Source of the DNA: Microlunatus phosphovorus NM-1
Lineage (GTDB): Bacteria > Actinomycetota > Actinomycetes > Propionibacteriales > Propionibacteriaceae
Assembly: GCF_000270245.1 (NCBI RefSeq)
Contig: NC_015635.1
Span: 2,728,001-2,792,000 of the forward strand
Length of the DNA stretch: 64,000 bases
Direction of reading: 5' to 3'
Shown here one piece after another: positions 25,966 through 58,199 of this stretch (the stretch's first letter is position 1; each line of letters begins with the position of its first letter). The position numbers were made by a program, and so were the translations under genes. The notes under the pieces are model-generated. The model was not told the origin of the DNA. It worked only from the letters and a program-made list of their open reading frames with translations, and made no database searches.

Positions 25966-27048
25966 GTGAAAGTTGTCAGCGTGGTCGGCGCACGCCCTCA
26001 GTTCGTGAAGCTGGCTCCGATAGCCCATGCACTCCAGGCCGCGGGCCACGAGCACATGATCGTGCACACCGGTCAGCACTATGACCCGAACCTGTCCGAC
26101 GTGTTCTTCAGCGGGCTGGGCATCCCCGAGTCAAACATCCACCTCGGGATCGGGTCGGGAAGCCATGGCGTCCAGACCGGGGCGATGCTGACCGCTCTCG
26201 ACCCGGTGCTGGAGTCCGCCGACCCCGATTGGGTCCTTGTCTACGGTGACACCAACTCGACGATCGCCGCGACGCTTTCGGCGGTCAAGCAGCATTTGCC
26301 GGTGGCCCATCTGGAGGCCGGGCTGCGGTCCTTCAACCGGCGGATGCCCGAGGAGCACAACCGCGTCCTCACCGACCACGCCGCCGATCTGCTGCTGGCG
26401 CCATCGGACGTTGCCATGCGCCACCTCGCCGATGAGGGCCTGAGCGATCGGGCTCGGTTGGTCGGCGATGTCATGGTGGACGTGTGCCTGCAGATCCGTG
26501 ATGCGGTGCTGGCCAGCGAGCAGCCTGCATCCACCACCTCGCATCCGATCGGTGGGCCGTATCTGCTCGCCACCTTGCACCGTCCGGACAACACCGACGA
26601 CCCGGCACGGCTGGCAGCCCTGATCGAATCGCTGGCTGCGCTTCCCCTACCGGTGCTGCTGCTGGCCCATCCCCGACTGGTGACCCGAGCGACGGCGGCG
26701 GGGATCTCGCTCACGCAGGGGTCGATCACCCAGTCATCGCCGCTGCCGTATCGCGAGCTGGTCACCGCCGTGCTCGGCAGTGTCGGGGTCATCACCGATT
26801 CGGGCGGCCTGCAGAAGGAGGCATTCCTGCTCCGTCGCCCGTGTACCACGCTGCGCACCGAGACCGAGTGGGTGGAGACCGTCGAACTCGGCTGGAACGT
26901 GCTGCTGCCCGATCCACACCTGCTCGATCCGCAGAAGTGGATCCAGCTGCCGCAGCGCCGGTGCGTCGAGACCGAAGCAGCACCGTACGGCTCCGGGCAC
27001 GCGGCAGCAGCGGTCGTCGAATGCCTGGCGGGAGAGATCCGCCGCTGA
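25966..27048 (+). CDS. Non-hydrolysing UDP-GlcNAc-type 2-epimerase, WbpI-like
   Basis: A 360-residue NDP-HexNAc 2-epimerase. Catalytic residues fall in VYGDTNST (Asp), HLEAGLRSFNRRMPEE (two Glu) and LHRPDN (His), with the UDP site at ITDSGGLQKEA. The combination HTGQHYDPNLSDVFFSGLG, GIGSGSHGVQTG and AGLRSFNRRMPEE resembles the WbpI/WlbD branch, which epimerises UDP-2,3-diacetamido-glucuronate, more than E. coli-type WecB. That subgroup call is from memory and needs a tree. The start is GTG with CAGGAG five bases upstream; the frame extends 147 codons further, antisense to the previous gene, and was rejected. A TAGCGT -10 lies at about 25928. Confidence 0.88.
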   Translation: MKVVSVVGARPQFVKLAPIAHALQAAGHEHMIVHTGQHYDPNLSDVFFSGLGIPESNIHLGIGSGSHGVQTGAMLTALDPVLESADPDWVLVYGDTNSTIAATLSAVKQHLPVAHLEAGLRSFNRRMPEEHNRVLTDHAADLLLAPSDVAMRHLADEGLSDRARLVGDVMVDVCLQIRDAVLASEQPASTTSHPIGGPYLLATLHRPDNTDDPARLAALIESLAALPLPVLLLAHPRLVTRATAAGISLTQGSITQSSPLPYRELVTAVLGSVGVITDSGGLQKEAFLLRRPCTTLRTETEWVETVELGWNVLLPDPHLLDPQKWIQLPQRRCVETEAAPYGSGHAAAAVVECLAGEIRR

Positions 27049-27057
27049 GGCCCGGCG

Positions 27058-29718
27058 TCACGACTGCAGGAAGCCCCCCAACAACTCGGCACTACGGCGT
27101 CCGTCATGGGTCACTCGGACGAAGTCGTGGGCCTCTCGGCCGATCTCCCGTGCTCGGTCGCGGTCGTCGAGCAGTTGCTCGATCGCCGCTCGGACCCCGG
27201 TGGGTTCGGTATTGACCAGCGGCGGAGTCCCGCCCAGGGCCGTCAGCACCGTCGGTGTCAGATGGACAACGACCGGCTTGCCGGCCGCCATCGCCTCGCA
27301 GGCGAGGGTTCCGTACGAGCCGATCGCCACCTGGTCGACGACGATGTCAGCGGCCTGCACCTGGTCGCGCATCGTCGTCCACGGCACGCCCTCGACCAGG
27401 CGCAGTTCGATCACCCCTCGAGCGTCCATTTCCTCCAAGTCCGGCAGGAACAGGTCGGTGCCCTTCGTCCATCGTTTCGACGGAGCGTGCAGGACGACGG
27501 GTCGTTGTCGCTCGAACACGGGCACCTCGCAGCTCCAGGCGTCCACGTCGACGACCAACGGGATCCACGTCGCCTTGGGCACGTCGTCGAGGAGGTCCGG
27601 GGTCGTCACGAAGATCGGTAAGTCCACCTGGGCGACGATGTCGGCATTGTGCTGTACGGCGCGGATACGCGCCTCCAGCAGATCGTCCGAGGCGTTGTTG
27701 AAGTGGGAGTAGGGCAACCTCTCCAGGTGGCGCTTGGGGTCCCGGATCTCGGATCCGTGGCACAGCAGCGCTGTCTTGATGCCGGCCCGGGTCAGCGCCG
27801 GGAGGTCGCCGCTGATGTCCGTGCCGTTCAGCTGACCCAGGATCGGCAGAAACGCGTCGGAGATGAGATGCGTGTACCGCGACAAGACCCTGCGCGCGAG
27901 ATCGAGCTGGACCTCGAGATCTGTCAGACTCCGCGCCGACAGGTAGATGTCCGAGGGATAGCCGAACCCGGTTCCCGCGGTCCTGGTGATCACCTCGGCC
28001 GAGACCTGCTCGTTCCGCTCGGTCACCGCCTGAGCCAGGGCTGCGAGCTGGCCGGCATAGTTGCCCATCCCCATCCCGAGCTTGATCTTGGTGTTGCCCA
28101 TCCGACGCCACGGCACGTCCTCGCCGGTGACGGCATGTCGCTCGTGGCGGGTATTGAGCAGACGCGGCGGGTCCTTGACCTCGGTGACGTCCCAGTCGAG
28201 GTCGGTTCGCGGACGCGGATCCAGACCACTGACCTTCCGGTAGAGCTTCAGCAGTCCTTCCGCCTGGTGCTCCCACGACAGATCGACCAGCATCTCCTCG
28301 GTGATGCCTGTGCGCCTCGCCTCTCGATCGGCGAGCGCAGCCCGAACGGCGGTGGCGAACGACTCAGGCTGACCGGCCTCGAAGACACTGCCGATCCCGT
28401 GCTCTCGTACGTAGGCGCTGAGGGTCTTGACGTCGCTGACCACCACGGGGAGCCCGGCATGGATGTACTCGGCGAGCTTGGTCGGCAGGGACAGCTCGTA
28501 GTTGATCGTCTTCGCCGAGCAGATGATGCCTAGATCGGCGGACGAAAGATAGTCCGCCACGTCCTGCGGATCCACATAGGGAACCGCATGAACTCGGTCG
28601 GCGACCTGGACTCGATCCGCACGACGCAACAGCTTGGTCAGGGCCGGATTGTTCAGGTTGGCCACGATCACAAGGTGGACCTCGGGCAGCAGCGGCAAGG
28701 CATCGATCGCCGTGTCGAGCCCGCGCTGGGCCTGGATGTAGCCGGAGTAGACCAACAGCGGGGTCTCCGCCGGCAGGTCTGCAGCGGTGCGGACCGAGAC
28801 TGCGGAATCCCGGCCGATCGCCTCGCGGACCGGGGTGTTCCGGACGACCAGGGGCCGAGTGGCCAACTGATGATCACGCTGGATGATCTCGGCGATCTCG
28901 GGCGAGACGGTGACGACCGCGTCGGCTCGGTGGATGTACTCGCGCTCGAGTTCCGGATAGGCGCTGGCCATCCTCGGGGTCGGCCAATCGACACCGGCGA
29001 CGTACTCGTGCGCGTCGTAGATCCAGCTCACCGGATGTCCTCGGCGACGCAGCCGAGCGGCGGCGATCGCACCGGTGTTGAGCATGGTGATGTCGTTGAC
29101 GTGGATCACATCAGGTCGGAACCGTTCGATGTACGGCCCGAAAGCCAGGTCGAGGTCGAGGAGGTTCGGCTGGTCGTGCCGCCAGTCACCGACAGGCGCG
29201 GCCGGATCCGGTCGGCGGGCGAGATCCCAGGCGGCAGCGTCTTCTTTCGCCCGATGTGAAAGCCGGTCGAGGTACGAGACGCCGCGCAGTCCGAAGCGCG
29301 CCGCCGACGCCAGCGGCGTGCCGCGCTGCCCCAGCAGACTGATCTGTTCCGAGCGCAATCGCTGCCGCGACTCGAAGGTCGCCTCCCAGGCCTCGCGGCC
29401 CTTGCTCATCGACGAGCCCGGCTGCAGCAGGCGGGTGCCCGTCTTGCGGCGGGCGTTCTCGGCGCGTGCCAGGTCATTCCCGACCGGGACTCGGATCACC
29501 TGCACCGCGCCGATGCGTGAGCGCTGCACCTTGCCCGTGGGTGAGCGGCCGATCAGGCAGACTTCCCAGCCATCGCGGGCGGCCGACAGCGCGACCTTCT
29601 GGACTCGGGAGTCTCCGGTGATGGCGTTCGCAACGATGACGGCCAGCCGGGGAGGACGTGAAGGCACGAGAGCATTCCCAACGATCTGCGGATAAGACGG
29701 AGTGGTGCGGCGTGACAT
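27058..29718 (-). CDS. Two-module glycosyltransferase (GT4-like plus second GT-B-like module)
   Basis: An 886-residue protein. The N-terminal ~530 residues form a GT4-type GT-B transferase: RLAVIVANAITGDSRVQKVA, FRPDVIHVNDI, YDAHEYVAG, the LLVYSGYIQAQRG hinge, and LPTKLAEYIHAGLPVVVSD with the nucleotide-sugar site. Residues ~560-886 form a second module: LGMGMGNYAGQLAALAQAV, LLCHGSEIRDPKRH, VTTPDLLDDVPKATWIP, VVLHAPSKRWTKGTD, IVVDQVAIGSYG. This second module is clearly paralogous to the C-terminal half of the protein at 31131-32855. No signal or TM helices were seen. It is the last gene of a tight leftward operon, four bases after the coiled-coil gene. Donor and acceptor sugars are unknown. 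Confidence 0.85.
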   Translation of the reverse strand: MSRRTTPSYPQIVGNALVPSRPPRLAVIVANAITGDSRVQKVALSAARDGWEVCLIGRSPTGKVQRSRIGAVQVIRVPVGNDLARAENARRKTGTRLLQPGSSMSKGREAWEATFESRQRLRSEQISLLGQRGTPLASAARFGLRGVSYLDRLSHRAKEDAAAWDLARRPDPAAPVGDWRHDQPNLLDLDLAFGPYIERFRPDVIHVNDITMLNTGAIAAARLRRRGHPVSWIYDAHEYVAGVDWPTPRMASAYPELEREYIHRADAVVTVSPEIAEIIQRDHQLATRPLVVRNTPVREAIGRDSAVSVRTAADLPAETPLLVYSGYIQAQRGLDTAIDALPLLPEVHLVIVANLNNPALTKLLRRADRVQVADRVHAVPYVDPQDVADYLSSADLGIICSAKTINYELSLPTKLAEYIHAGLPVVVSDVKTLSAYVREHGIGSVFEAGQPESFATAVRAALADREARRTGITEEMLVDLSWEHQAEGLLKLYRKVSGLDPRPRTDLDWDVTEVKDPPRLLNTRHERHAVTGEDVPWRRMGNTKIKLGMGMGNYAGQLAALAQAVTERNEQVSAEVITRTAGTGFGYPSDIYLSARSLTDLEVQLDLARRVLSRYTHLISDAFLPILGQLNGTDISGDLPALTRAGIKTALLCHGSEIRDPKRHLERLPYSHFNNASDDLLEARIRAVQHNADIVAQVDLPIFVTTPDLLDDVPKATWIPLVVDVDAWSCEVPVFERQRPVVLHAPSKRWTKGTDLFLPDLEEMDARGVIELRLVEGVPWTTMRDQVQAADIVVDQVAIGSYGTLACEAMAAGKPVVVHLTPTVLTALGGTPPLVNTEPTGVRAAIEQLLDDRDRAREIGREAHDFVRVTHDGRRSAELLGGFLQS

Positions 29719-29722
29719 CGCG

Positions 29723-31134: not shown

Positions 31135-32855
31135 CCTCCGAAGGCCTCCGTCAGCACGCGGGCGGACATCCTTCCGTCGTGGTGGGTGCGAGCAAACTCA
31201 GTGCCGCACGCCGCCAGCCGACTATAGTGCTCCCGATTCTCGACCACGGACACCATGATGTCCTCGAGCGTGGCCGGAGTCGCCTCCACGATCGGTGACC
31301 GAGGCTTCATCCGGCGTCTCACGCCCTCCGGCAGGTGTGCCACCACCAACCGGCCCGCGGCCATCGCTTGCCCGGCCAGCACGCCAGGGTTGCCCATCAC
31401 CACCTGGTCGACGAGGACGTCCACCTCGGCGACCATCGACGGGATCATCATCGAGGGCAGATCATGTAGCCGCCGGTAGCGGATGAGCTTGCGCCTATGG
31501 AGGTCGCGCAACACCGGATCGATGCACTCCGAGCCTTTGAGGGCAGAATTGGACGGCGCGTGGGCGACCACAGGTCGCGACTCGGTGAGCGCTGGTCTGG
31601 TCGGAGCGAACGAGGCAGGACCGACCACCCCCGGCAGCCACACGGCATTCGGCACATGGTCCACCAGATCCGGTGTGGACACCAGGATCGGGCCGTCGAA
31701 GTCCATGAAGGCCTCATGCACTCGCTCGGTGACTTGCTCGAGTTGCGCAGTGAGGTCCTCGTTCTCCCTACGGTAGAACGGCGACCACGGGGTCAGCCGC
31801 AGGTGATGCGCCGGTCGGCGGACCTCGGACCCGTGGAAGAGCAGCGCCACGCGCCGCCCGGTTGCCCGCAGCGCCTCGACGTCCTCTCGCCCGCGGCGGG
31901 GATCCCAGGCACTCACCGACTCGCTTGCGTCGGCGACGGCGAGCAGAGGCCGCATCGCCTCGATCAGCACGTCGGTGGAGTCGGCGAGCAGCTCAACGGC
32001 CAAGCTGACCCGAGTGGCCGGATCCGCCCACTGCACGGCTGTCAGTGGCAGATCCGCCTGGAAGGCCAACCGCGAGCTGGCTGGCGCCACGTGAACGTTG
32101 CGCGCCGTCCAGCCGGAAGCGTGCTCGCGGACCGATCTGGCCCACTCATACCCTTGACCGGCGTAGTTGGCCGGCCCTATCACGAGCCGGCGCTCAGCCG
32201 TCGCCGGGACGCGACGGCGGGTTCCGGCCAGGGAAGCGACCGCCTTCGCGCCGCGGCGGCTCATCGAACCCGTGCGGACGTCGAGGTCACCGCGCTCGTC
32301 GCGATCGCCCAGGGCCAGCCATGGCTCGCCCACGGCCGGCGTACGGCCGCTCACCGTCACCGTCGAGACCGCGCTGGCGGCTGGCCCAAGCCCGGCATCG
32401 GCCACGCTGAGTGAGACGTCGAACGGTGGTGGGTGCAGCACCCGGTCCGGGGTCTCCCCACGTTCGAGCAGCCGTGCGACCCGGATGGCCGAGTCCAGCG
32501 AGTTGGTCGCGATCAGGTCGTCGTGCACGTTCAGCGCCTGCCACGCCGCCAACTGGGTCATCCGGTCGACGGCGGCCAGCACCACCGGTCCTGGTGCCTC
32601 GGCCAGGCGGGCCAGCAGCATCTCCGCGATCTGCTCCACGTGCCGCCGGGCAACGGTAGCCAGGCTTCCGGCAGGCACCTTCTCGGCCGGAACGAGTGCG
32701 ATGTGTTCGTCGTCCGGTGCCACCACCACTGTCAATGCCAACGTGTGCTGAGCAGGGGCGGCATGTATCCGAGCCACCGTGCCTGCGTCCGGGAGGGACG
32801 AGGACAGGTGCAGCAGCCACACCCGATCGGCGGGTCTCGATGGGACGTCGGTCAT
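31131..32855 (-). CDS. Glycosyltransferase-like protein, paralogue of the 886-residue protein's C-terminal module
   Basis: A 574-residue protein. Residues ~220-574 align with the second module of the protein at 27058-29718: RLVIGPANYAGQGYEWARSV, ALLFHGSEVRRPAHHL, ILVSTPDLVDHVPNAVWLPG, VVAHAPSNSALKGSE, DVLVDQVVMGNPGVLAGQAM and ARTHHDGRMSARVL. The N-terminal ~215 residues are unrelated to the GT4 domain of that protein and show a DEHIALVPAEKVPAG-type Ala/Val-rich alpha/beta region. A GT-B-like fold is inferred; activity is unproven. It overlaps both neighbours by 4 bases in the leftward operon. Confidence 0.78.
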   Translation of the reverse strand: MTDVPSRPADRVWLLHLSSSLPDAGTVARIHAAPAQHTLALTVVVAPDDEHIALVPAEKVPAGSLATVARRHVEQIAEMLLARLAEAPGPVVLAAVDRMTQLAAWQALNVHDDLIATNSLDSAIRVARLLERGETPDRVLHPPPFDVSLSVADAGLGPAASAVSTVTVSGRTPAVGEPWLALGDRDERGDLDVRTGSMSRRGAKAVASLAGTRRRVPATAERRLVIGPANYAGQGYEWARSVREHASGWTARNVHVAPASSRLAFQADLPLTAVQWADPATRVSLAVELLADSTDVLIEAMRPLLAVADASESVSAWDPRRGREDVEALRATGRRVALLFHGSEVRRPAHHLRLTPWSPFYRRENEDLTAQLEQVTERVHEAFMDFDGPILVSTPDLVDHVPNAVWLPGVVGPASFAPTRPALTESRPVVAHAPSNSALKGSECIDPVLRDLHRRKLIRYRRLHDLPSMMIPSMVAEVDVLVDQVVMGNPGVLAGQAMAAGRLVVAHLPEGVRRRMKPRSPIVEATPATLEDIMVSVVENREHYSRLAACGTEFARTHHDGRMSARVLTEAFGG

Positions 32856-34174
32856 GGCCTCAACGCCGCGAAGACGTCGGCAAGGGCGGGACGTAGGTGC
32901 GCCTCACGACTGCGTCGCGCGCCGTACTCGGCCGCCGCCGCGAAGTGCCGTTCGCCCTGAGCCATGTCATCGAGGGCCTCGAGCATGGCGGCGGACAGCG
33001 CGCGCTCGGAATAGTCGCGGGCATCGTGCCAGCGCGGGTAGCCGTCCAGAATGCGCCGAGCATCATGCTGGGCATCCAGCATGGAGACGATCGGCAGCCC
33101 GGTCGCGACGTATTCGTAGACCTTTCCTGACGTCACCATGGCCGATCCTTCCTTCAAGAAGACCAGCACGTCGGCCTCCGCGTACACCTGTGTGATCTGG
33201 TGCTTGGGGGTGCGACCAGTCAGTATCAGGCCATCACGGGCGTACTCATCGGCAATGGCGGTCTGCTCGGCCGTCAGGTGGCCACCGTGGCCGAACGAAC
33301 CGACCACCCGGAGCTCGGCGTCGGAGAGCTCAGCCGAGCGATGTCGAGCGATGCGCCAGGCCTCGGCCAGCAGCCGCAGTGGAAATGTCGAACTCACGGT
33401 GCCCACGTAGGTGTACACCAGGCGAGAGCCTGGCCGACGGTCGCGGTGGATCTGGTCGATATCCAGAAACCGCGGATCCCAACCGTTCTCCACGACCGCG
33501 ATCCGGTCGGCGTACTGCGGAAACCGCTCGCGATGCCACTGTGCGATCGGCTCGTTCACGAACCACATCCGTAGTGCGCGGGAGAGGGCGAACTCAAGCC
33601 AAGGCAGGGTCTGGTCAGCCAACGGAGCGGGCTCGCCGGTATAGACGTTGAGCAGCCAGCTATCCCGATCATCGAGCACGAACGGGATGCCGTAGTCGAC
33701 GCTCAGCCGTAGCGGCACGGTGTAGTCGACGTAGGGGTTTCCGGTCGCGATCACCAGGTCGATGGGGTCCACCTCGTGGATCCGGGCGGCCGCTGCCTCG
33801 GCACGGGGCTGCCAAGTCGAGTAGACCAGTTCAGGGAACGACTGAGTCTGGTCGTCGCGAACTCTGGCAGCCCACCGCTTCGGCCTTCGGATGCGCGCGT
33901 TCGGCCACCGATTCAGCAGGGGGTCGCGCTCCAGCGGGTCCATGGCCACCCGGACCACCCGCACACTGTCGGCCACGTCGTCCAGCAGGGTGCGGTCACC
34001 GCCGATGATGAGATCGAAGGTGTCCAGGTCGGCTGTCAACACCGTCACTCTGTGGCCGGCCCGGACGAGCTCCGCCACCGTTGCCAGCGGTCGATAGACC
34101 CCGGGACCCTGGTGTGGTGCGAAGGCCCACGCCACGTACAGCACATGCCGCGGCTCGTGGAACCGCTGATCCAT
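32852..34174 (-). CDS. Glycosyltransferase, GT4-like
   Basis: A 440-residue GT-B glycosyltransferase. The N-terminal domain starts VLYVAWAFAPHQGPGVYRPL and has VTVLTADLDTFD and DLVIATGNPYVDYTVPLRL. The C-terminal domain has the hinge RLVYTYVGTVSSTFPLRLL, LILTGRTPKHQITQVYAEAD and the donor-site VTSGKVYEYVATGLPIVSM. The open frame continues 180 codons upstream across the acyltransferase gene, but the ATG at 34174 has GAGAGGG seven bases before it and begins the fold, so it was chosen. The gap to the acyltransferase gene is 38 bases. Acceptor and donor are unknown. Confidence 0.87.
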   Translation of the reverse strand: MDQRFHEPRHVLYVAWAFAPHQGPGVYRPLATVAELVRAGHRVTVLTADLDTFDLIIGGDRTLLDDVADSVRVVRVAMDPLERDPLLNRWPNARIRRPKRWAARVRDDQTQSFPELVYSTWQPRAEAAAARIHEVDPIDLVIATGNPYVDYTVPLRLSVDYGIPFVLDDRDSWLLNVYTGEPAPLADQTLPWLEFALSRALRMWFVNEPIAQWHRERFPQYADRIAVVENGWDPRFLDIDQIHRDRRPGSRLVYTYVGTVSSTFPLRLLAEAWRIARHRSAELSDAELRVVGSFGHGGHLTAEQTAIADEYARDGLILTGRTPKHQITQVYAEADVLVFLKEGSAMVTSGKVYEYVATGLPIVSMLDAQHDARRILDGYPRWHDARDYSERALSAAMLEALDDMAQGERHFAAAAEYGARRSREAHLRPALADVFAALRP

Positions 34175-34212
34175 CGATGCCCTCTCGCCGTGGAACCCGC
34201 CAAGTTGTGTTC

Positions 34213-35367
34213 TCAAACTAACCGTCGCACCAGCGGGATCTGCCGAAGCAGGATAGCAAGTACGAAACTGACGACCAGCACCAATCCGAGACGCCCGAGC
34301 AGTTCGACGACACTGCCCGCGGCCGGGGTTCCACCGACGAACGGAAGGTCGTAGGAGACCGTGAGGACGGCAAGATGGAGCGCGAACACCCCAAGCGTGA
34401 CCTGGCCCAGAAGTTGCCCGAGCTCGGCCGGACGACCGCGGACAGTCCAGCCCAGCGCCCGACCCCGCCGCAACACCGCCTGACCCACGAGGAACACCAA
34501 CGCCGCGTAGAGCTGGACTCCGAGCGAGTAGTAGCCGCCGAACAACCCGCTGAACCACCAGGGCACATCCGGACGCCGGAACATCCACACGATTGCTGCC
34601 GTGATCGCCACGCAGGCCAGCACGGCGATCACCACCGCGATCCGGTGCAACACGATTCCCCGTAGTCCCCAGCCCAGCAGATAGACGCCGACGTAGGGGA
34701 GCCACCAGGTCCACGGAGACTCGATCCAGACGACCGGCGCGTCACGAATGGTGACGGTGAGCGGGCTGAGGGCGGACATGGAGACCGCGATCGCCGCTCC
34801 GATCAGCACCGCTCGACGGCTGGACCGAGCGATCCAAGCCACCAACACCGGTGTCACCACAGCCAGACCGAGCACGATCCAGAAGAAGTACAAGGCGGTG
34901 AACAGCTGGCCGCGCAAGGTGAGTCTGACCGCCGATTGCCAGGGCACCTCGTGGCCTAGATAGAGCACCCGGAAACCCCAATAGAAGAGGTGCCAGAACA
35001 CGATCGCAGGCACCAGCCGCAACGCACGTCGGCGCAAGAAGTCGCCGTCACCGCGATAGCGTGAGGGCGCCAGGAGCAGCGCACCGCTGAGCATCACGAA
35101 GATCGGCACCGTGAAGTTGAAGCCGCGGTTCAACAGGATGGCCAACATGCCGACCGTCGTCGACCGTGCGTCGGGCCGGATCGCCGTGGCACCCGTCACG
35201 TGGATGGTCACCACACCACAGATGGCGAACACACGCATCCAGGAGACCCAATCGATCCGTCCTGACTCAATGGCGATCGAGAAGAAGCGGCGCGCCGTCG
35301 GCCGGGCTGCCGGCTGCGGCGCTGGCTCGTCGGTTCCGGAGCCGTAGGTCTCGGGGTCGTCACTCAT
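34213..35367 (-). CDS. Acyltransferase family 3 membrane protein
   Basis: A 384-residue, roughly ten-helix integral membrane protein of the AT3 (OafA/WecH-like) type that O-acetylates or otherwise acylates surface sugars. The motif WVSWMRVFAICGVVTIHVTG near residue 40 contains the conserved R and catalytic H of AT3 helix 1, followed by NRGFNFTVPIFVMLSGALLL and RRRALRLVPAIVFW. The N-terminal ~35 residues are a polar cytoplasmic tail. The ATG at 35367 precedes the tail; a long upstream frame overlaps the divergent GT2 gene and was rejected. It is probably the first gene of the leftward glycosyltransferase operon. Confidence 0.88.
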   Translation of the reverse strand: MSDDPETYGSGTDEPAPQPAARPTARRFFSIAIESGRIDWVSWMRVFAICGVVTIHVTGATAIRPDARSTTVGMLAILLNRGFNFTVPIFVMLSGALLLAPSRYRGDGDFLRRRALRLVPAIVFWHLFYWGFRVLYLGHEVPWQSAVRLTLRGQLFTALYFFWIVLGLAVVTPVLVAWIARSSRRAVLIGAAIAVSMSALSPLTVTIRDAPVVWIESPWTWWLPYVGVYLLGWGLRGIVLHRIAVVIAVLACVAITAAIVWMFRRPDVPWWFSGLFGGYYSLGVQLYAALVFLVGQAVLRRGRALGWTVRGRPAELGQLLGQVTLGVFALHLAVLTVSYDLPFVGGTPAAGSVVELLGRLGLVLVVSFVLAILLRQIPLVRRLV

Positions 35368-35463
35368 CGAGGCACATGCTAATGGCCGACATCCGAACGA
35401 AGGCCGTGCAACTAGACTGCCCAAGGCACGGGGGACACCGACACCGGCGACGAGGGGGCGTGG

Positions 35464-36396
35464 ATGTACGAGGGCCTGCGGGTCGCAGTTGTCGTACCAG
35501 CCTTCCGGGAACGCGAGCACATCGCTCACGTCATCACCACCATGCCCGCCACCGTCGACCACATCGTGGTGGTGGACGATGCGAGTCCGGACGACACTTT
35601 CGAGGTGGCCGTGGCGGTGAATGACGCACGCACCGAAGTGCTGCGGCACGAGCGCAACAAAGGGGTCGGCGGCTCCATCGTCACCGGTCACCGACGGGCT
35701 CTCGAGCTAGGTGCCGACATCTGCGTGGTGATGGCCGGTGATGGCCAGATGGACCCCGAGCAACTCCCCCGGCTGCTGACACCGCTGGCGGAGCAGGGAT
35801 ACGCCTTCGCGAAGGCCAACCGCTTCTACTCCGCGACAAGCTACACCGGCATGCCGACCCACCGTGTCGTGGGCAATCTGGTGTTGACGTTCCTCACCAA
35901 GGCCGCCTCTGGCTACTGGAATCTGGTGGACCCGCAGAACGGCTATACGGCGATCACTCGGGACTGCCTGGAGCGACTCCCGTTGGACCGGCTGGCCGAG
36001 CGCTACGAGTTCGAGAACGACCAGCTGATCTGGCTGAACATCCTCGACGCGCGCGCGATCGACGTCCCCATTCCGGCCCGTTACGGCCGCGAGGTGTCCA
36101 GCATCAAACTGCACGCCGTCGTACCTCGGCTCCTGCTCCTGCTCTTCCGTGGCTTCTGGCGCAGGGTTTGGCACAAATACGTTCTCTGGTCGTTCTCTCC
36201 CGTCGCGTTGATGTTGTTCGCCGGCAGCCTGCTCGTGCTGCTCGGCACCGTGGTCGGCGTCTGGGCGATGCTGGCCAGCGTGGGACCGTCCGAGGCGAGC
36301 ACCGGCACGTGGCTGTTGGCGGTCGCACCGACGCTGGTGGGCATCCAGCTGCTGGTGCAGTCGCTCGTGCTGGATATCCAGGCGACCCCGAAGTGA
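35464..36396 (+). CDS. GT2 polyprenyl-phosphate sugar transferase with C-terminal membrane helices
   Basis: A 310-residue DPM1/GtrB-like enzyme predicted to load a sugar onto polyprenol phosphate on the cytoplasmic side. The GT2 domain has VAVVVPAFREREHI, VVVDDASPDDTF and VMAGDGQMDPEQLP in place of the usual DADLQ. Two membrane helices occupy ~235-305. Its GTGA end overlaps the GtrA-like gene, and this pairing is typical of GtrA/GtrB-type systems in which the lipid-linked sugar is then flipped outward. The ATG at 35464 follows GAGGGGG. Confidence 0.88.
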   Translation: MYEGLRVAVVVPAFREREHIAHVITTMPATVDHIVVVDDASPDDTFEVAVAVNDARTEVLRHERNKGVGGSIVTGHRRALELGADICVVMAGDGQMDPEQLPRLLTPLAEQGYAFAKANRFYSATSYTGMPTHRVVGNLVLTFLTKAASGYWNLVDPQNGYTAITRDCLERLPLDRLAERYEFENDQLIWLNILDARAIDVPIPARYGREVSSIKLHAVVPRLLLLLFRGFWRRVWHKYVLWSFSPVALMLFAGSLLVLLGTVVGVWAMLASVGPSEASTGTWLLAVAPTLVGIQLLVQSLVLDIQATPK

Positions 36397-38073: not shown

Positions 38074-38184
38074 CGATCTCCTCGCGGGACGCTGGGCACG
38101 CAGCCTGGCTAGGAGCACAGGTCCAGCGTTGCTGGTGTGAGGCTAGCCTGCTGCAAGGTGACGAACACAGCACACCATCGTGCC

Positions 38185-38212
38185 TTGCCGACGGCACTCC
38201 GAATAGTAGGGT
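38185..38212 (+). promoter_or_regulatory. Putative promoter of the aminosugar operon
   Basis: TTGCCG (38185-38190) and TAGGGT (38207-38212) are separated by 16 bases and would start transcription about 45 bases before the aminotransferase ATG. This is the only good candidate before the four-gene operon at 38266-43379. Confidence 0.4.
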
Positions 38213-38265
38213 GACCGCCGTAGTCAGCCCCAGACCTTGCCCGGATGCCCGTAGGAGAAGCCTGC

Positions 38266-39390
38266 ATGACCGTACCCACCCCCATCCCGGCCGCGAAGCC
38301 GGTCATCGATGAGACCGATATCGAAGCAGCCGTTCGGGTGCTGCGCTCCGGCATGGTGGTGCAGGGCCCCGAGGTGAAGGCCTTCGAGGACGAGTTCGCG
38401 CCGGTCGCGAACGCGGCGCACTGCGTCGCGGTCAACTCCGGCACCTCGGCGCTGCATCTCGCGTTGCTGGCACTCGGCATCGGCCCGGGTGATGAGGTGA
38501 TCGTGCCGTCGTTCACCTTCGCGGCCACCGCCAACGCGGTCCGCCTGGTCGGCGCCGATCCGGTCTTCGTCGACATCCAGCGGGACACCTTCAACATCGA
38601 TCCGGCTGCGGTCGAGGCGGCGATCGGCCCGCGTACGGCCGCGATCATGCCGGTGCACCTCTACGGCCTTCCTGCGGACTTGCCCCGACTGACCGCCATC
38701 GCCGAACAGCACGGTCTCGCCATCGTCGAAGACGCGGCGCAGGCGCACGGCGCGGCGATCGACGGCCGTCAGGTCGGTGCCTGGGGGCAGGCCGGCTGCT
38801 TCAGCTTCTACCCCACCAAGAACATGCATTCGCTCGAGGGCGGCATGGTCAGCACCAACGATGCCGAGTTCGCCCGCCAGGTCCGGCTGCTGCGCAATCA
38901 GGGCATGGAGCAGCGCTATGCCAACGAGATCGTCGGCACCAACACCCGGTTGACCGATGTCGCCGCGGCCATCGGCCGGACTCAGCTCAGCAGGCTGCAC
39001 GGCTGGACCGAGCAGCGTCGCAGCAATGCCGCGGCCCTCGACGCCGGTCTGTCCGGTATCACCGGGGTCACCGTCCCACCGGTGCCGGACGGCCTGCGCC
39101 ACGTCTATCACCAGTACACGATCCGAGTCGTCGAGCGCGATGCGGTGTCGGCCAAGCTCGCCGCGCTCGGCATCGGGAACGCGGTCTACTACCCCACGCC
39201 GGTCCACCGGCTGCGCCCGTTCCTGGTCGACGGGGCCGCTGACCCGCGCTGGCAGTTGCCGGAGACCGAACGGGCCGCCGCCGAGGCGCTGTCCTTGCCG
39301 GTGCATCCTGCGCTGAGCGACAGCGACATCCAGCGGATCATCGACGGCGTGGCCGTCGTGGAAGCCTCGGCGGTAGCGAGCGCCTCGTGA
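38266..39390 (+). CDS. DegT/DnrJ/EryC1/StrS sugar aminotransferase, WbpE-like
   Basis: A 374-residue PLP enzyme that aminates a keto-sugar nucleotide. Family signs are VNSGTSALHLALLALGIGPG, IVPSFTFAATANAVRLVGA, the VEDAAQAHGA motif with the PLP-stacking residues, and the Schiff-base Lys in CFSFYPTKNMHSLEGG. The C-terminus reads YYPTPVHRLRPF. The start was set at the ATG at 38266 behind AGGAGAAG; an ATG seven codons earlier lacks a site. Its stop overlaps the Gfo/Idh/MocA gene (GTGA). With that neighbour, the sugar dehydrogenase and the LbetaH acetyltransferase, it fits WbpE, which makes the 3-amino group of UDP-2-acetamido-3-amino-glucuronate. Confidence 0.9.
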   Translation: MTVPTPIPAAKPVIDETDIEAAVRVLRSGMVVQGPEVKAFEDEFAPVANAAHCVAVNSGTSALHLALLALGIGPGDEVIVPSFTFAATANAVRLVGADPVFVDIQRDTFNIDPAAVEAAIGPRTAAIMPVHLYGLPADLPRLTAIAEQHGLAIVEDAAQAHGAAIDGRQVGAWGQAGCFSFYPTKNMHSLEGGMVSTNDAEFARQVRLLRNQGMEQRYANEIVGTNTRLTDVAAAIGRTQLSRLHGWTEQRRSNAAALDAGLSGITGVTVPPVPDGLRHVYHQYTIRVVERDAVSAKLAALGIGNAVYYPTPVHRLRPFLVDGAADPRWQLPETERAAAEALSLPVHPALSDSDIQRIIDGVAVVEASAVASAS

Positions 39391-40382
39391 GCAGAGCAGT
39401 TCTGCGGGCAGGCATGATCGGGCTTGGCTCGATGGGTCGCAATCACGCGCGGGTGCTCGGGCAGCTTCCCGGCGTCGAGCTGGTCGGGATCGCCGATCCG
39501 ATGCTGGAGGGCCGTACCACCTCCACCGCCCCCATCGTCGGGACCGTCGACGAGCTGATAGAGCTCGGCCTGGACTATGCCGTGGTCGCCTGCCCCACCG
39601 GACTGCACGAGGAGGTCGGCCTGCAGCTCGCCGACGCGGGTGTCTGTGCCCTGATCGAGAAGCCTCTGGCGCACTCCGACGAGGCGGCTCGCCGGCTGGC
39701 CGAGGCGTTTGCCACCAAGGGACTGATCGCCGGCGTCGGCCACATCGAGCGTTACAACCCGGCGCTACGCAACCTCAAGGCCCGGCTGGCCGCCGGCGAT
39801 CTGGGCGAGGTCTATCAAGTCATCACCCGGCGCCAGGGACCCTTCCCCGCGCGGATCGCCGATGTCGGTGTGGTGAAGGACCTGGCCACCCATGACATCG
39901 ACCTCACCGGCTGGGTGACCCAGCAGGACTACGTGTCGGTGGCCGCCCAGACCTCGCGCCGCAGCGGTCGGGCGCATGAGGATCTGGTCGCCGTGGTGGC
40001 CGAGCTGTCCGACGGCACCCCGGTCAACCACCTGGTCAACTGGCTGACCCCGTTCAAGGAGCGGCAGACCGTGGTGACCGGCGAACGGGGCGCGTTCGTC
40101 GCCGACACCTTGACCGCCGATCTGACCTTCTACGCGAACGGGGCGGTGAGCAGCGAATGGGAGGCGGTGCGCAACTTCCGGGGAGTCGCCGAGGGCGACA
40201 TGACCAGGTATGCCATCTCCCGCCGTGAGCCCCTGATGGTCGAACACGAGCACTTCCGCGACGCGTTGCTGGGTCTCAGCGACGACATCGTGACCTTGGC
40301 GGAGGGGCTGCGTACGGTGGAGATCTCGACTGCGATCTTGGCGGCGGCCGACCAGGGCGTGACGATCTCCATCAAACGCTGA
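39387..40382 (+). CDS. Gfo/Idh/MocA oxidoreductase, WbpB-like
   Basis: A 331-residue NAD(P)-dependent sugar oxidoreductase. The Rossmann motif is GMIGLGSMGRNHARVL at the N-terminus, the typical EKPLAHS motif is near residue 92, and GVGHIERYNPALRNLKARL follows. Its role is inferred from operon position: directly downstream of the aminotransferase (4-base overlap), as wbpB sits with wbpE, where it oxidises C3 of UDP-N-acetylglucosaminuronate before transamination. The start is GTG within the overlap. The next gene follows after 7 bases. Confidence 0.88.
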   Translation: MSRAVLRAGMIGLGSMGRNHARVLGQLPGVELVGIADPMLEGRTTSTAPIVGTVDELIELGLDYAVVACPTGLHEEVGLQLADAGVCALIEKPLAHSDEAARRLAEAFATKGLIAGVGHIERYNPALRNLKARLAAGDLGEVYQVITRRQGPFPARIADVGVVKDLATHDIDLTGWVTQQDYVSVAAQTSRRSGRAHEDLVAVVAELSDGTPVNHLVNWLTPFKERQTVVTGERGAFVADTLTADLTFYANGAVSSEWEAVRNFRGVAEGDMTRYAISRREPLMVEHEHFRDALLGLSDDIVTLAEGLRTVEISTAILAAADQGVTISIKR

Positions 40383-40389
40383 CCCGGCC

Positions 40390-42096
40390 GTGACAGTAGA
40401 CAGCGCGGTCTCCCCGACCGTTCCCGACGCCACTGATGCCGCAGGCGTCCCAGACGTCTCGGTGATCATCCCCGTCTACAACACCCTCCCCTACCTTCGC
40501 CCGTGTGTGCAGTCGGTGCTGACCCAGAGCATCGGGGCCGACCGCCTGGAGATCATTGCGGTGGACGACGGTTCCACCGATGGGAGCGGCGAGCTCCTGG
40601 ACGAGTTCGCGGCCTCGCATCCTGGAACGCTGCGGGTGATCCACCAAGAGGACAACTCAGGCGGACCGGCCGCGCCGTGCAATCGTGGCCTGGAGTGCGC
40701 CACCGGACGGTGGGTCTTCTTCCTCGGCGCCGACGACTACCTGTCGCCGACCGCGTTGGAGCGGCTGGTGAGCCGGGGGGACGAATGGCAGTCCGACGTG
40801 ATCTTCGGCACGATGCAGGGTGAGAACGGCCGATTCGTGGATCAACGCATCTACCGCCGGACTGCCAAGGACGTCGACCTCGGCGGCTCGGCGCTGTGCT
40901 ACTCGTTGTCCAACACCAAGCTCTTCCGTCGCGCGCTGCTGGAGCAGCACCAGATCCGGTACGCGCTCGATCTCCGGGTCGGCAGCGATCAGCCGTTCAC
41001 GGTCGAGGCCCTCGCTCAGGCGTCGCGGATCTCGGTGCTGACCGACCAGGTGTACTACTACGCGGTGAAGCGTGACGACGCGACCAACATCACCTACTCC
41101 ACGCCGTGGCACACCCGGCTGGCCGATGTCACCGCGATCATCGAGCACATCGCAGCCGTGCTGCCGCCAGGCCCCGTCCGCGATGCCATCTTGACCCGCC
41201 ATTTCACGATGGAGCTGGGCAAGCTGGTGCGACTGGATCTTCCGGGTCTTCCGGCGGCGGACCAGCGCCAGCTCAGCTCCGGGATCCAGCAGCTGGTCAC
41301 GCAGTTCTGGACGCCGGGGCTGCAGCAGCGGATGGGGGTTCTCGCCCGTCTTCGCATCGAACTGGTCGCCTCCGATCAGCTCGACCTGCTGCAGCGGGTG
41401 CTCGACTACCACGCGGCCTGCGCCGACCGGGGTGACTCGCCACCGCTGGTGCTCCGCGCCGGAACGGCCTACGTCTGGTATCCGGGGTTCGACCAGCCGA
41501 CGACGGACCCAAGCTGGTATCAACTGCACTCGGAGAATCTGAGCAAGCGACTCCGAACAGCAGCCCAGGTGTCCCGAGCCGCATTCTCGGGGCACTCCCT
41601 ACGCCTCGAAGGACGGCTCGGGGTCACCGCCGACAGCGGCCCCTTCGCTCGTCTCGTGCTGCGGCCGACACCACCTGGCGCCAAGCCGGCGCCGGTTCGC
41701 CGCCTGCTCGACGCAGGGTTCACCGATCCCACCGCTGAGACCACCGCCGGCTGGTCGTCGCTGGAGCTCAGCACCGAACGGGCCGGTGACCGCGCAAGTT
41801 TCCGCACCGTCCTCGATCTCTCCGCGGTGCTGAAGTCACTCGGGGACAGCGCACAGGACCACTCGGTCGAGGTCCAGCTCCTGGTCGGCCAGCATCGCTA
41901 CGACGTGCCGGCGATCGCGGAGATCGCCGGCGATCTGACCTCCGAGGCAGTGATCGGCCCGATCCATCGGTCGACCGCGGCCCGGCTCCACTCCGTTGGC
42001 TCGCTGGACCCGCTGATCCTCACCGTGTGTCGACGGCCGGTGTCTCGAGCCGTCAAAGCTGTGGTACGTCGAGCTCTCTCGAAAGGAACGAAGTGA
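40390..42096 (+). CDS. GT2 glycosyltransferase with long C-terminal extension
   Basis: A 568-residue protein. Residues ~20-230 are a GT-A GT2 domain with VSVIIPVYNTLPYLRPCVQSV, IAVDDGSTDGSGELLDEFA, PAAPCNRGLECATGRWVFFL and the metal-site GADDYLSP. Residues ~230-350 are helical. The last ~200 residues are beta-rich with RLEGRLGV and RTVLDLSAVL motifs that recall the accessory beta domain found in GT2-TagF fusion proteins such as the neighbour at 43997-47776. The start is GTG. Its stop overlaps the dehydrogenase ATG (TGATG). It probably adds a sugar to the polymer unit. Confidence 0.86.
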   Translation: MTVDSAVSPTVPDATDAAGVPDVSVIIPVYNTLPYLRPCVQSVLTQSIGADRLEIIAVDDGSTDGSGELLDEFAASHPGTLRVIHQEDNSGGPAAPCNRGLECATGRWVFFLGADDYLSPTALERLVSRGDEWQSDVIFGTMQGENGRFVDQRIYRRTAKDVDLGGSALCYSLSNTKLFRRALLEQHQIRYALDLRVGSDQPFTVEALAQASRISVLTDQVYYYAVKRDDATNITYSTPWHTRLADVTAIIEHIAAVLPPGPVRDAILTRHFTMELGKLVRLDLPGLPAADQRQLSSGIQQLVTQFWTPGLQQRMGVLARLRIELVASDQLDLLQRVLDYHAACADRGDSPPLVLRAGTAYVWYPGFDQPTTDPSWYQLHSENLSKRLRTAAQVSRAAFSGHSLRLEGRLGVTADSGPFARLVLRPTPPGAKPAPVRRLLDAGFTDPTAETTAGWSSLELSTERAGDRASFRTVLDLSAVLKSLGDSAQDHSVEVQLLVGQHRYDVPAIAEIAGDLTSEAVIGPIHRSTAARLHSVGSLDPLILTVCRRPVSRAVKAVVRRALSKGTK

Positions 42097-43379
42097 TGCA
42101 GATCTGCGTCGTGGCGCTGGGCAAGATCGGGCTCCCGCTGGCCGTCCAGTTCGCCCGGAAGGGCCACCGGGTCTACGGCGCCGACGTCGACGCGCGGACT
42201 GTGGACGTGGTCAACCAAGGCGTGCCGCCGTTCCCGAACGAGGCGGGCCTGGAGGAAGCCCTGGCGGAGGTGGTGACCGCGGGACTCCTGACGGCCACGA
42301 CGGACACCACGGCGGCGGTCGCCGACAGCGATGCCGTGGTCGTCGTCGTACCCCTGTTCGTGGACTCCGAGGCGGTGCCGGACTTCGGCTGGATGGACGC
42401 GGCCACACGTGCCATCGGCGCCGGGCTGCGACCGGGCACCCTGGTCAGCTATGAGACCACCCTGCCGGTCGGCACCACGCGAACCCGCTGGGCCCCGATG
42501 CTGGCCGAGACGTCCGGGCTGACGCCCGGGGAGGACTTCCACCTCGCCTTCAGCCCGGAGCGGGTGCTGACCGGGCGGGTCTTCGCCGATCTGCGCAAAT
42601 ACCCCAAGTTGGTCGGCGGCATCGACGAGGGCTCCGGGTGGCACGCCGAGGAGTTCTATCGGGCCGTGCTGGACTTCGACGAACGTGACGATCTCCCTCA
42701 GCCCAACGGCGTGTGGAACCTCGGGTCCGCCGAGGCTGCAGAGATGGCCAAGCTCGCCGAGACGACCTATCGCGATGTGAACATCGGGCTGGCCAATCAG
42801 TTCGCCCGGTACGCCGACACTGTCGGCGTCGACGTGCTGAAGGTCATCGAGGCCTGCAACTCCCAGCCCTACAGTCACATCCATCGCCCGGGAATCGCCG
42901 TCGGCGGCCACTGCATCCCGATCTATCCGCAGATCTACCTCTGGAACGATCCGGCGGCCACCGTCGTCCGGGCCGCTCGCGAGGCGAACACCGGGATGCC
43001 CCACTACGCCGTGGACCTGCTGGCCGCGGCACGCGGCGACCTGACCGATCTCTCGGTGCTGGTGCTGGGTGCGGCCTACCGCGGCGGCGTCAAGGAGGCT
43101 GCGTTCTCCGGGGTGTTCCCGATCGTGGCGGAGCTGCAGCGGCGCGGTGCCCGCTCCTATGTCAGCGACCCGCTCTACACACCCGAGGAACTCGAGGCGC
43201 TCGGGCTTCCCGCCCACCGCGGCGAGCCGGTCGAAGCTGCCGTCATCCAGGCCGACCACCGCGAGTACGCCACCTTGTCCCCGGAGGATCTGCCGGGGGT
43301 CACGGTGCTGGTCGACGGCCGTCGGGTCACCGATCCGCTGCGCTGGCAAGGGAAGACCAGGCTGGTCATCGGCGGCTGA
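42096..43379 (+). CDS. UDP-sugar 6-dehydrogenase (UDP-GlcNAc/ManNAc type, WbpA/WecC-like)
   Basis: A 427-residue NAD-dependent enzyme that oxidises C6 of a UDP-sugar to a uronate. Motifs are VVALGKIGLPLAVQFARKGH with the nucleotide fold, SYETTLPVGTTR, LAFSPERVLTGR, the central-helix LAETTYRDVNIGLANQF and the catalytic Cys in GIAVGGHCIPIYP. The FSPERVLTG form is typical of the UDP-HexNAc dehydrogenases rather than UDP-glucose dehydrogenase. The start is the ATG overlapping the GT2 stop. Together with the aminotransferase, oxidoreductase, acetyltransferase and 2-epimerase it completes a WbpA-like pathway. Confidence 0.9.
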   Translation: MQICVVALGKIGLPLAVQFARKGHRVYGADVDARTVDVVNQGVPPFPNEAGLEEALAEVVTAGLLTATTDTTAAVADSDAVVVVVPLFVDSEAVPDFGWMDAATRAIGAGLRPGTLVSYETTLPVGTTRTRWAPMLAETSGLTPGEDFHLAFSPERVLTGRVFADLRKYPKLVGGIDEGSGWHAEEFYRAVLDFDERDDLPQPNGVWNLGSAEAAEMAKLAETTYRDVNIGLANQFARYADTVGVDVLKVIEACNSQPYSHIHRPGIAVGGHCIPIYPQIYLWNDPAATVVRAAREANTGMPHYAVDLLAAARGDLTDLSVLVLGAAYRGGVKEAAFSGVFPIVAELQRRGARSYVSDPLYTPEELEALGLPAHRGEPVEAAVIQADHREYATLSPEDLPGVTVLVDGRRVTDPLRWQGKTRLVIGG

Positions 43380-43397
43380 CCTTCGGGTGCGACAACT

Positions 43398-44000
43398 CTA
43401 GGCCTCGACGAGTTCGACGTCCCCCTCAGCGGTGCGCCGCTCGCGATAGTGGTCCCCGGTCTTCGGGCAGACCCACTCATCGCCTTCGGCGACCAGTCGA
43501 AGACCGGCTTTGCCGACCCAGCCGATCCGACGCGCCGGCACCCCGACCACGAGGGCGAAGTCCGGCACGTCCTTGGTGACGACCGCGCCGGCCGCCACCA
43601 TCGCCCAGCGACCGATCCGCACCGGCGCCACGCAGACACTACGGGCGCCGAGCGCGGCGCCGGTTTCGACCACGACCCCGACCGCCTCCCAGTCCGCGCC
43701 GCCCTTGCGGCGGCCGTCCGGCTCGATCGCACGGGGATACTCGTCGTTGGTCAAGACCACCGCCGGACCGACGAACACCCCGTCGGCGAGCTGCGCCGGC
43801 TCGTAGACCAAGGCGTAGTTCTGCACCTTCACATTGCTGCCGAGCCGGACGCCGGTGCCGATGTAGGCCCCACGACCGATGATGCAGCCCGCCCCGAGCT
43901 CGGCGTCCTCCCGGATCTGGGCGAGCTCCCACACCGTCGTGCCGTCGCCCAGCCGGGCCGAATCGGCCACCTGGGCGCTGTCCTTGACTACCGCGCTCAT
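43398..44000 (-). CDS. Left-handed beta-helix acetyltransferase, WbpD-like
   Basis: A 200-residue hexapeptide-repeat acyltransferase. Coils run through ARLGDGTTVWELAQIREDAE, GCIIGRGAYIGTGVRLGSNV and VFVGPAVVLTNDEYPRA; a loop RRKGGADWEAVGVVVETGA precedes the second half. The C-terminus has a small ECP-like tail (EWVCPKTGDHYRE). The NDEYPRA motif with the early WELAQI is characteristic of the WbpD/WlbB group that acetylates the 3-amino group of UDP-2-acetamido-3-amino-2,3-dideoxy-glucuronate. It overlaps the large GT2-TagF gene by 4 bases and is convergent with the dehydrogenase gene. Confidence 0.9.
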   Translation of the reverse strand: MSAVVKDSAQVADSARLGDGTTVWELAQIREDAELGAGCIIGRGAYIGTGVRLGSNVKVQNYALVYEPAQLADGVFVGPAVVLTNDEYPRAIEPDGRRKGGADWEAVGVVVETGAALGARSVCVAPVRIGRWAMVAAGAVVTKDVPDFALVVGVPARRIGWVGKAGLRLVAEGDEWVCPKTGDHYRERRTAEGDVELVEA

Positions 44001-55105: not shown

Positions 55106-55189
55106 GAAACTCCTCGTGGTGGGGAAACTCGCGGCCGAAGCCGCTGTACGTCGATTTCCCCGAGGTGCGCATGCGCACAACGAGTCGGA

Positions 55190-55229
55190 ACACTAGCCGA
55201 CTCGCCAATCCAGTGCCAAATGTTACGAA
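55190..55229 (-). promoter_or_regulatory. Conserved promoter of phosphatase copy 1
   Basis: Read on the minus strand: upstream element TTCGTAACA (55229-55221), -35 TTGGCA (55219-55214), 18-base spacer, and -10 TAGTGT (55195-55190). The same element, spacings and flanking pattern occur upstream of copy 3 at 58239-58200. Start of transcription would be about 80 bases before the ATG. Confidence 0.6.
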
Positions 55230-55265
55230 CCAGAGACGAGTTCGTCCTGCAGACCTCCTACGAGG

Positions 55266-56666: not shown

Positions 56667-56719
56667 GGGACTCCTCTATCGGTGTGCTGCGATCGATACC
56701 GGATCGCAACGGCACCAGC

Positions 56720-58123: not shown

Positions 58124-58199
58124 GAGACTCCTCCATCGGACCGCGGTCACGTCGCGGTCAAGCGGTTCTCCGAGATGTGCGGGAGCACGATGAGGCCGC

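Follow-up and report, generated by a model that had tools for sequence, protein, structure and literature searches.

The 64,000-nucleotide stretch of Microlunatus phosphovorus NM-1 analysed here (NC_015635.1, positions 2,728,001 to 2,792,000; hereafter the window) probably carries a utr-type locus as in Streptomyces griseus. Judging from the genes, this locus would make the uridine diphosphate (UDP) form of the diacetamido-glucuronic acid GlcNAc(3NAc)A, also written GlcNAc3NAcA, epimerise part of it and incorporate it into a teichuronic-acid-like chain on ribitol wall teichoic acid. In the proposed pathway, UDP-N-acetylglucosamine (UDP-GlcNAc) would be converted to UDP-GlcNAc(3NAc)A by C6 oxidation, C3 oxidation, C3 transamination and 3-N-acetylation. 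A dedicated 2-epimerase would convert part of the product to UDP-ManNAc(3NAc)A, the mannuronic form. A TarS-like glycosyltransferase (40390) would start the chain by placing GlcNAc3NAcA on the ribitol phosphate of wall teichoic acid, and other glycosyltransferases of the locus would extend a teichuronic-acid-like chain containing ManNAc3NAcA. Enzymes that supply cytidine diphosphate (CDP)-ribitol and that polymerise the teichoic acid appear to be encoded alongside. Each catalytic step, each linkage and the polymer itself are predicted from the genes. New here is the example of a utr-type locus in another actinobacterial family; the sugar and its ribitol-phosphate attachment are already in print. 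The result would add a further actinobacterial family to the range of a recently described type of wall glycopolymer, and its gene assignment can be tested. As a claim of new actinobacterial chemistry, it adds little.

The observations are of gene content, gene order, clade, diagnostic residues and co-occurrence. The genes that carry the reading are as follows.

25966..27048, plus strand: predicted WbpI/UtrH-type UDP-GlcNAc(3NAc)A 2-epimerase, 360 amino acids (PF02350, 272 bits)
38245..39390, start maybe 38266, plus strand: predicted DegT-family 3-aminotransferase, UtrA/WbpE-like (PF01041, 421 bits)
39387..40382, plus strand: Gfo/Idh/MocA oxidoreductase, predicted for UtrB-like C3 oxidation (PF01408, 63 bits; PF22725, 59 bits)
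40390..42096, plus strand: UtrC/TarS-like family-2 glycosyltransferase, 568 amino acids (PF00535, 112 bits; PF22181)
42096..43379, plus strand: predicted UDP-sugar C6 dehydrogenase, UtrD-like (TIGR03026, 286 bits, cut-off 189.8)
43398..44000, minus strand: predicted hexapeptide 3-N-acetyltransferase, UtrJ/WlbB/WbpD-like (PF00132)

The five pathway open reading frames (ORFs) claimed by an earlier model-made interpretation of the same DNA (the sequence-only reading) were all found at the positions it gave, and the third-position guanine-cytosine content of these genes is 0.74 to 0.89. All five Wbp/Wlb enzyme kinds are present at one locus, with the epimerase about 12 kb from the rest. The four pathway genes between 38.2 and 44.0 kb form an uninterrupted run together with one glycosyltransferase gene (40390), which the sequence-only reading had left unmentioned. 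The epimerase starts with GTG within a longer open frame that begins at 25525. The aminotransferase has a lysine in SFYPTKNM, the oxidoreductase has an EKP motif, and the dehydrogenase has a cysteine in GGHC; these are presumably the catalytic residues.

The closest solved relative of the epimerase is the Thermus thermophilus UDP-GlcNAc(3NAc)A 2-epimerase 8sxv (326 bits). It is followed by 4neq (234 bits) and 1f6d (122 bits), which we take to be the UDP-GlcNAc epimerases of Methanocaldococcus jannaschii and Escherichia coli. The UDP-GlcNAc(3NAc)A enzyme is set apart from the UDP-GlcNAc enzymes by Trp307 (replacing a conserved Arg), Tyr96 (for His or Gln) and Ala18 (for Leu or Met), and Ala18 is linked to the flipped Tyr96 in the T. 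thermophilus enzyme (available text of PMC10622841). The window epimerase has the equivalents of Trp307, Tyr96 and Gln14, and the Ala18 equivalent is Leu (protein position 16). The Trp307 equivalent is present in all 33 actinobacterial rows, in all 53 rows L138–L190, which are nearly all of other phyla (L183, Thermoleophilaceae, belongs to Actinomycetota), and in 3/3 references, whereas Arg is found in 20/20 WecB-like rows (19 proteins, as L109, labelled actinobacterial in the tree, is a WecB-like paralogue identical to WL048). The Tyr96 equivalent is found in 33/33, 49/53 and 3/3 of the same three sets, and also in one of the 20 WecB-like rows. Within the family, these residues were read in the window and in 31 of the 33 other genomes with this epimerase. 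According to the 109-row tree, the window epimerase falls in an 89-row set (support 99/98) with the T. thermophilus, Pseudomonas and Deinococcus reference enzymes. This set stands apart from E. coli WecB and 18 other family epimerases, and L041, with Arg307 and a long branch, is located just outside it. The tree and the Trp307/Arg split give the same two sets.

These data bear on a plainer explanation, in which the epimerase is WecB and the dehydrogenase WecC, making UDP-N-acetylmannosaminuronic acid, and the other three enzymes make an unrelated 3-amino sugar. The wecB model of NCBIfam names the window epimerase above its cut-off (242 vs 210 bits), and Leu18 is typical of UDP-GlcNAc enzymes. 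The top model for the dehydrogenase is the general one for nucleoside diphosphate-sugar dehydrogenases; models of UDP-ManNAc dehydrogenase come next (237 and 184 bits, under cut-offs of 750 and 459), followed by TviB (110 bits), and the closest solved relative of the enzyme is the UDP-ManNAc dehydrogenase 4r16, presumably from Pyrococcus horikoshii. However, both the tree and the residues equivalent to Trp307 and Tyr96 group the epimerase with WbpI, the dehydrogenase belongs to a branch distinct from WecC, and 33 of the 34 genomes that carry this epimerase also encode the acetyltransferase and oxidoreductase. A Pseudomonas enzyme encoded within a wbp-type cluster of five genes likewise bears the name wecB. 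The WecB/WecC explanation is very improbable, and we rejected it on the tree, the residues and the co-occurrence.

The name itself deserves caution. Both public records and the NCBIfam model give the name of plain WecB to such epimerases; among the 30 plasmid relatives listed, of 36, 25 are annotated wecB. The two plasmid relatives that were read both have Trp307, one in Pseudomonas frederiksbergensis with the full five-gene cluster and one in Deinococcus radiophilus with four of the five kinds within the 21 kb read. The annotation wecB may hide a diacetamido-uronic acid pathway in other plasmids. Trp307, co-occurrence and a UtrC neighbourhood are the marks that separate diacetamido-uronic acid epimerases from plain WecB. 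A second, WecB-like epimerase with Arg at the 307 position was observed in the same genome (L002; G000:C1:4741306-4741995). Within its open frame of 248 amino acids, the match to the family covers just the C-terminal two thirds, and the N-terminal part was not found within the 3.7 kb read; the gene is possibly truncated.

The acetyltransferase has 3mqg, which we take to be Bordetella WlbB, as its closest solved relative (141 bits vs 89 bits for the next). It is of the WlbB/WbpD kind. A plasmid cluster of P. frederiksbergensis with five wbp-type genes in a row was used as the comparison set. Identities to its enzymes are 46% for the epimerase, 41% for the acetyltransferase (WbpD position) and 39% for the aminotransferase (WbpE position). 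The solved relatives of the aminotransferase are 2oga (304 bits; presumably DesV), 7b0d (303 bits), QdtB (262 bits) and WbpE (259 bits). The sequence-only reading had named two findings that would speak against it, an epimerase grouping with plain WecB and an acetyltransferase grouping with unrelated hexapeptide enzymes. Neither was found, and as a prediction from sequence the pathway appears good.

For the other two enzymes, the claimed WbpA/B/E/D/I match holds at the level of reaction kind and fails at the level of lineage. The oxidoreductase shows no meaningful BLASTP match to the WbpB-position enzyme of P. frederiksbergensis (E = 0.03). Its solved relatives are unspecific (inositol dehydrogenase, 69 bits; 3q2k, presumably WlbA, 48 bits). 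The dehydrogenase shows 31% identity to both WbpA and WecC. In its tree, the 29 actinobacterial rows cluster in a single branch that excludes WbpA and WecC, according to Shimodaira–Hasegawa-like approximate likelihood-ratio support (SH-aLRT) only and with long branches flagged. WbpA/WbpB orthology was rejected on the E value and the separate branch. The specific tests (structures, tree, residues and co-occurrence) uphold the claimed UDP-GlcNAc(3NAc)A/UDP-ManNAc(3NAc)A pathway for the epimerase, acetyltransferase and aminotransferase, and for the remaining two only the kind of reaction is upheld. Inside the actinobacterial branch, the window dehydrogenase belongs to a set of 13 rows; the others come from utr-like genomes, except for one Microbacteriaceae row whose stretch yielded no UtrC. 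The dehydrogenase is 72–79% identical to genes adjoining UtrC-like genes in 13 of the 20 regions read.

The lineage of the oxidoreductase raises the question of the order of steps. In the archaeal pathway, C3 oxidation of UDP-GlcNAc comes first and C6 oxidation comes late. The window enzymes may follow a similar order, with the oxidoreductase acting on UDP-GlcNAc, followed by transamination and acetylation and then by late C6 oxidation; the product would be the same. Of the curated families scanned, the best for the oxidoreductase is the archaeal UDP-GlcNAc 3-dehydrogenase NF040723 (190 bits, under its cut-off of 450), and it has no WbpB match. Its best relatives outside actinobacteria, among the loci fetched through the epimerase, are from Chloroflexota (38–40% identity) and archaea (31–32%). 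The score below the family cut-off speaks against this order. A route like that of Pseudomonas aeruginosa was proposed for S. griseus (available text of PMC13274773). We regard the archaeal order as possible but somewhat less likely than not.

The gene between the oxidoreductase and the dehydrogenase would connect the sugar with teichoic acid. The UtrC-like protein 40390 has the PF22181 TarS linker domain (39.6 bits over a cut-off of 27), and its Asp200 is invariant in 13/13 aligned rows; this residue may correspond to S. griseus Asp181. The aminotransferase, oxidoreductase, TarS-like glycosyltransferase and dehydrogenase at 38245–43379 stand in the order utrA-B-C-D; these four are hereafter the module. 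A UtrC-like match at 1e-60 occurs in 3/197 family genomes, all of the window's genus, and a match at 1e-40 occurs in 59 of the 394 genomes of the class, the window's own included. The 20 regions mentioned above comprise 17 regions of 16 genomes, taken from the best UtrC matches, and three regions from two genomes of the same genus. All four module genes are present in 11/20 regions, each on one strand, with the window's order in eight and with the dehydrogenase before UtrC in three. In one region (L109), the sugar-nucleotide genes are present without UtrC.

In the collection searched with the epimerase, where the best 80 of 589 matches were scanned and absences mean little, all four module genes were found in three of the 27 actinobacterial loci. 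All three are from Streptomyces, with TarIJ, epimerase and acetyltransferase adjoining. In Streptomyces halstedii (L112), a span of 21 kb contains TarIJ, the acetyltransferase, the epimerase and, on the other strand, the module. In Glycomyces (L117), UtrC and the dehydrogenase are located beside the epimerase. UtrC was not found in 23/27 loci, some of them on short contigs.

The pathway genes also travel together through the family Propionibacteriaceae. This epimerase, at identities of at least 60%, is present in 34/197 genomes including the window's own; then follows a gap to 45%, with further classes near 38% and 33%. The list consists of the window's genome, G077 and otherwise matches of at least 60%. 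In G077, the epimerase was matched in two separate pieces (G077:C8:21445-22492), pointing to a broken gene or a faulty assembly. Both acetyltransferase and oxidoreductase are present in 33 of the 34 genomes, against 26/163 genomes without this epimerase; these counts and tests ignore kinship between genomes, and absences are soft, as 3 to 16 candidates were scored per genome. In the exception, G131, the assembly is fragmented and the epimerase match lies near a contig end. Acetyltransferase matches below about 145 bits were not counted as present (13 of 76 genomes dropped), and all 67 oxidoreductase rows were counted, weak ones included. One acetyltransferase row that was kept, G126, shows only 45% identity, and without it both genes are found in 32/34.

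In 29 of 33 genomes, one contig carries both the epimerase and the acetyltransferase; the two are within 30 kb of each other in 27 of these genomes and 0.2 and 1.5 Mb apart in the remaining two. Of the 59 genomes that have both acetyltransferase and oxidoreductase, 57 have the pair on a single contig, in every case within 30 kb. The 38% epimerase class shows no link with the acetyltransferase (12/29, p = 0.28), and the 33% class shows a weak one (19/38, p = 0.011). According to these sequence comparisons, the five-gene match is not chance, because two of its members have specific solved enzymes as relatives (326 bits for the epimerase, 141 bits for the acetyltransferase) and the genes recur together from genome to genome.

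Around the pathway genes, methyltransferase genes and the following genes were found.

22253..25804, minus strand: CDP-glycerol/ribitol phosphotransferase-like protein, 1183 amino acids (PF04464, 78.5 bits)
27058..29718, minus strand: family-4 glycosyltransferase (GT4), 886 amino acids, candidate chain-extending enzyme (PF00534, 89 bits)
32852..34714, start probably internal, minus strand: GT4 glycosyltransferase (PF13692, 35.6 bits)
34213..35691, start uncertain, minus strand: acyltransferase-3 protein (PF01757, 96 bits)
35464..36396, plus strand: family-2 glycosyltransferase, 310 amino acids (PF00535, 64 bits)
43997..47776, minus strand: fused family-2 glycosyltransferase and TagF/TarF-type polyol-phosphate transferase, 1259 amino acids (PF00535, 135 bits; PF04464, 268 bits)
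50294..52066, minus strand: family-61 glycosyltransferase, GT61 (PF04577, 70 bits)
52166..53602, plus strand: fused TarI-TarJ-like protein, predicted for CDP-ribitol (PF01128, PF00106)

The TarIJ-like ORF has an open frame from 51899, and its first domain starts near 52184. Relatives at 51–68% identity are present in seven of the 20 regions, with the full module in four of the seven. The fusion protein at 43997..47776 scores 168 bits with the TarF model and 82 bits with the TarL model, both below cut-off. A 57% relative of the 22253..25804 protein adjoins the epimerase in the same-genus genome G059 (L108). GT4 27058 has relatives in utr-like regions with identities up to 49%. GT4 32852 has 33–36% relatives near the module, and the codon-bias filter retained a shorter overlapping ORF in its place; it is a candidate for the UtrF/UtrG role. 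The acyltransferase-3 protein is a candidate for an O-acetylation step. Elsewhere in the window, two adjacent ORFs of similar size within 53669–58201 show weak matches to the endonuclease/exonuclease/phosphatase fold (31 and 32 bits), and a third of like size and composition is located at 56720–58201; they are perhaps a tandem family. The protein at 17466–18605 belongs to the bacterial archaeo-eukaryotic release factor group (baeRF families 11, 8 and 3).

The same sugar could be used in a different polymer, namely a Cutibacterium-like wall polysaccharide without attachment to ribitol phosphate; in that case the UtrC-like enzyme would have another function. A wall and matrix polysaccharide of Cutibacterium acnes does contain ManNAc3NAcA (available text of PMC6598116). 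In the family, where the UtrC-like gene is so rare, it is common to find relatives of the enzymes in its absence. Against this, UtrC with its TarS linker domain lies inside the module, TagF and TarIJ adjoin, and the window epimerase does not group with those of its own family members Cutibacterium and Tessaracoccus. It falls in a 12-row set (support 100/98) with Streptomyces, Glycomyces, Nocardioides, Actinocrinis and others. UtrC was found next to 10 of these 12 rows, the window included, but next to not one of the other 21 actinobacterial rows. As five of these ten were fetched via UtrC or the window's genus, the fair count, restricted to loci found through the epimerase, is 4/6 vs 0/21. The two rows without UtrC, L114 and L131, are both on short contigs. 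We consider the different polymer unlikely, and the attachment to ribitol teichoic acid is preferred.

The UtrC-type version of the locus has probably moved between lineages as a unit, since the epimerase set mixes lineages and UtrC-like matches at 1e-60 are confined to the window's genus within the family; the rest of the family would use the sugar otherwise. A broader proposal is that hybrid wall polymers of teichuronic acid on teichoic acid are widespread in Actinomycetota beyond Streptomyces (the window's genus, two genomes of the same order from another family, and Glycomyces), with their own epimerase and dehydrogenase lineages and with C3 oxidised before C6 in the archaeal style. Taken as a whole, this proposal is rather doubtful. 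If it is true, each such hybrid polymer would be a candidate receptor for umbrella-type toxins.

Several points weigh against the utr-type reading, in addition to the neglect of kinship, the soft absences and the divergent oxidoreductase and dehydrogenase described above. Several other genes lie in the 12 kb between the epimerase and the module. Leu is found at position 18 in all 33 actinobacterial epimerase rows. Ala18 is not strict in the WbpI branch, because it is present in 39/53 of the rows L138–L190 and in 3/3 references and is replaced by Leu in all actinobacterial rows; Leu18 is left unexplained by the published Ala18–Tyr96 account. A UtrC relative alone does not imply the module, because eight of the 19 regions with such a relative have a partial module or none, some of the stretches being truncated. 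In G059, some 1.5 Mb separates the sugar-nucleotide genes of the module from the genes for UtrC and the epimerase, and the epimerase near the former is WecB-like (37% identity; L108, L109); the pathway there may be split over two loci. A UtrE-like 4-epimerase was not found among the 20 ORFs scanned from 22253 to 53602. The sugar-nucleotide enzyme assignments in S. griseus are themselves predictions by structure modelling (available text of PMC13274773). The literature search found no wall analysis of M. phosphovorus; PMC6113628, in its available text, concerns only Kribbella.

Three known systems can be compared with the window. The Wbp system of P. aeruginosa and the Wlb system of Bordetella pertussis resemble it in the five predicted activities, with epimerase and acetyltransferase of the same family and an aminotransferase of the WbpE kind. 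In contrast, the window oxidoreductase is not WbpB-like, the dehydrogenase forms its own branch, Leu replaces Ala at epimerase position 18, and the predicted product polymer is a wall polymer, not an O-antigen.

Cutibacterium (genus g14) belongs to the same family, Propionibacteriaceae, and has epimerase, acetyltransferase and oxidoreductase at 59–66% identity to those of the window. Unlike the window, g14 gave no UtrC-like match at 1e-60, and the wall and biofilm matrix polysaccharide of C. acnes combines ManNAc3NAcA with galactose, glucose and N-acetylgalactosamine (GalNAc) (PMC6598116). The sequence-only reading had considered such a sugar beside ribitol phosphate in an actinobacterial wall polymer to be notable. 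This novelty falls away with the C. acnes polysaccharide and with the Streptomyces polymers (PMC13274773).

The closest system is the utrA–J locus for teichuronic acid–wall teichoic acid of S. griseus and S. antibioticus. For S. griseus, a 2025 paper reported that GlcNAc3NAcA links ribitol-phosphate teichoic acid to a chain built of GalNAc and ManNAc3NAcA, on the evidence of nuclear magnetic resonance (NMR) and of diffusion, size and dephosphorylation measurements; whole-molecule NMR did not resolve the direct link (PMC13274773). S. antibioticus has a chain of GlcNAc3NAcA alone on ribitol-phosphate teichoic acid and is without utrE, utrF and utrH; utrC was deleted in both species and utrG in S. 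antibioticus (PMC13274773). The window differs from the S. griseus locus in its genus and in the UtrE-like 4-epimerase, missing among the 20 ORFs; UtrE is not defining for all utr loci, because S. antibioticus is also without it. The module in the window is surrounded by large GT4, GT61, GT2–TagF fusion and methyltransferase genes. In the published locus, utrA encodes the aminotransferase, utrB the oxidase, utrC the TarS-like enzyme, utrD the dehydrogenase, utrH the 2-epimerase and utrJ the N-acetyltransferase (PMC13274773). The window shares with it the A-B-C-D order, the 2-epimerase (as in S. griseus) and the N-acetyltransferase, with TarIJ and TagF nearby.

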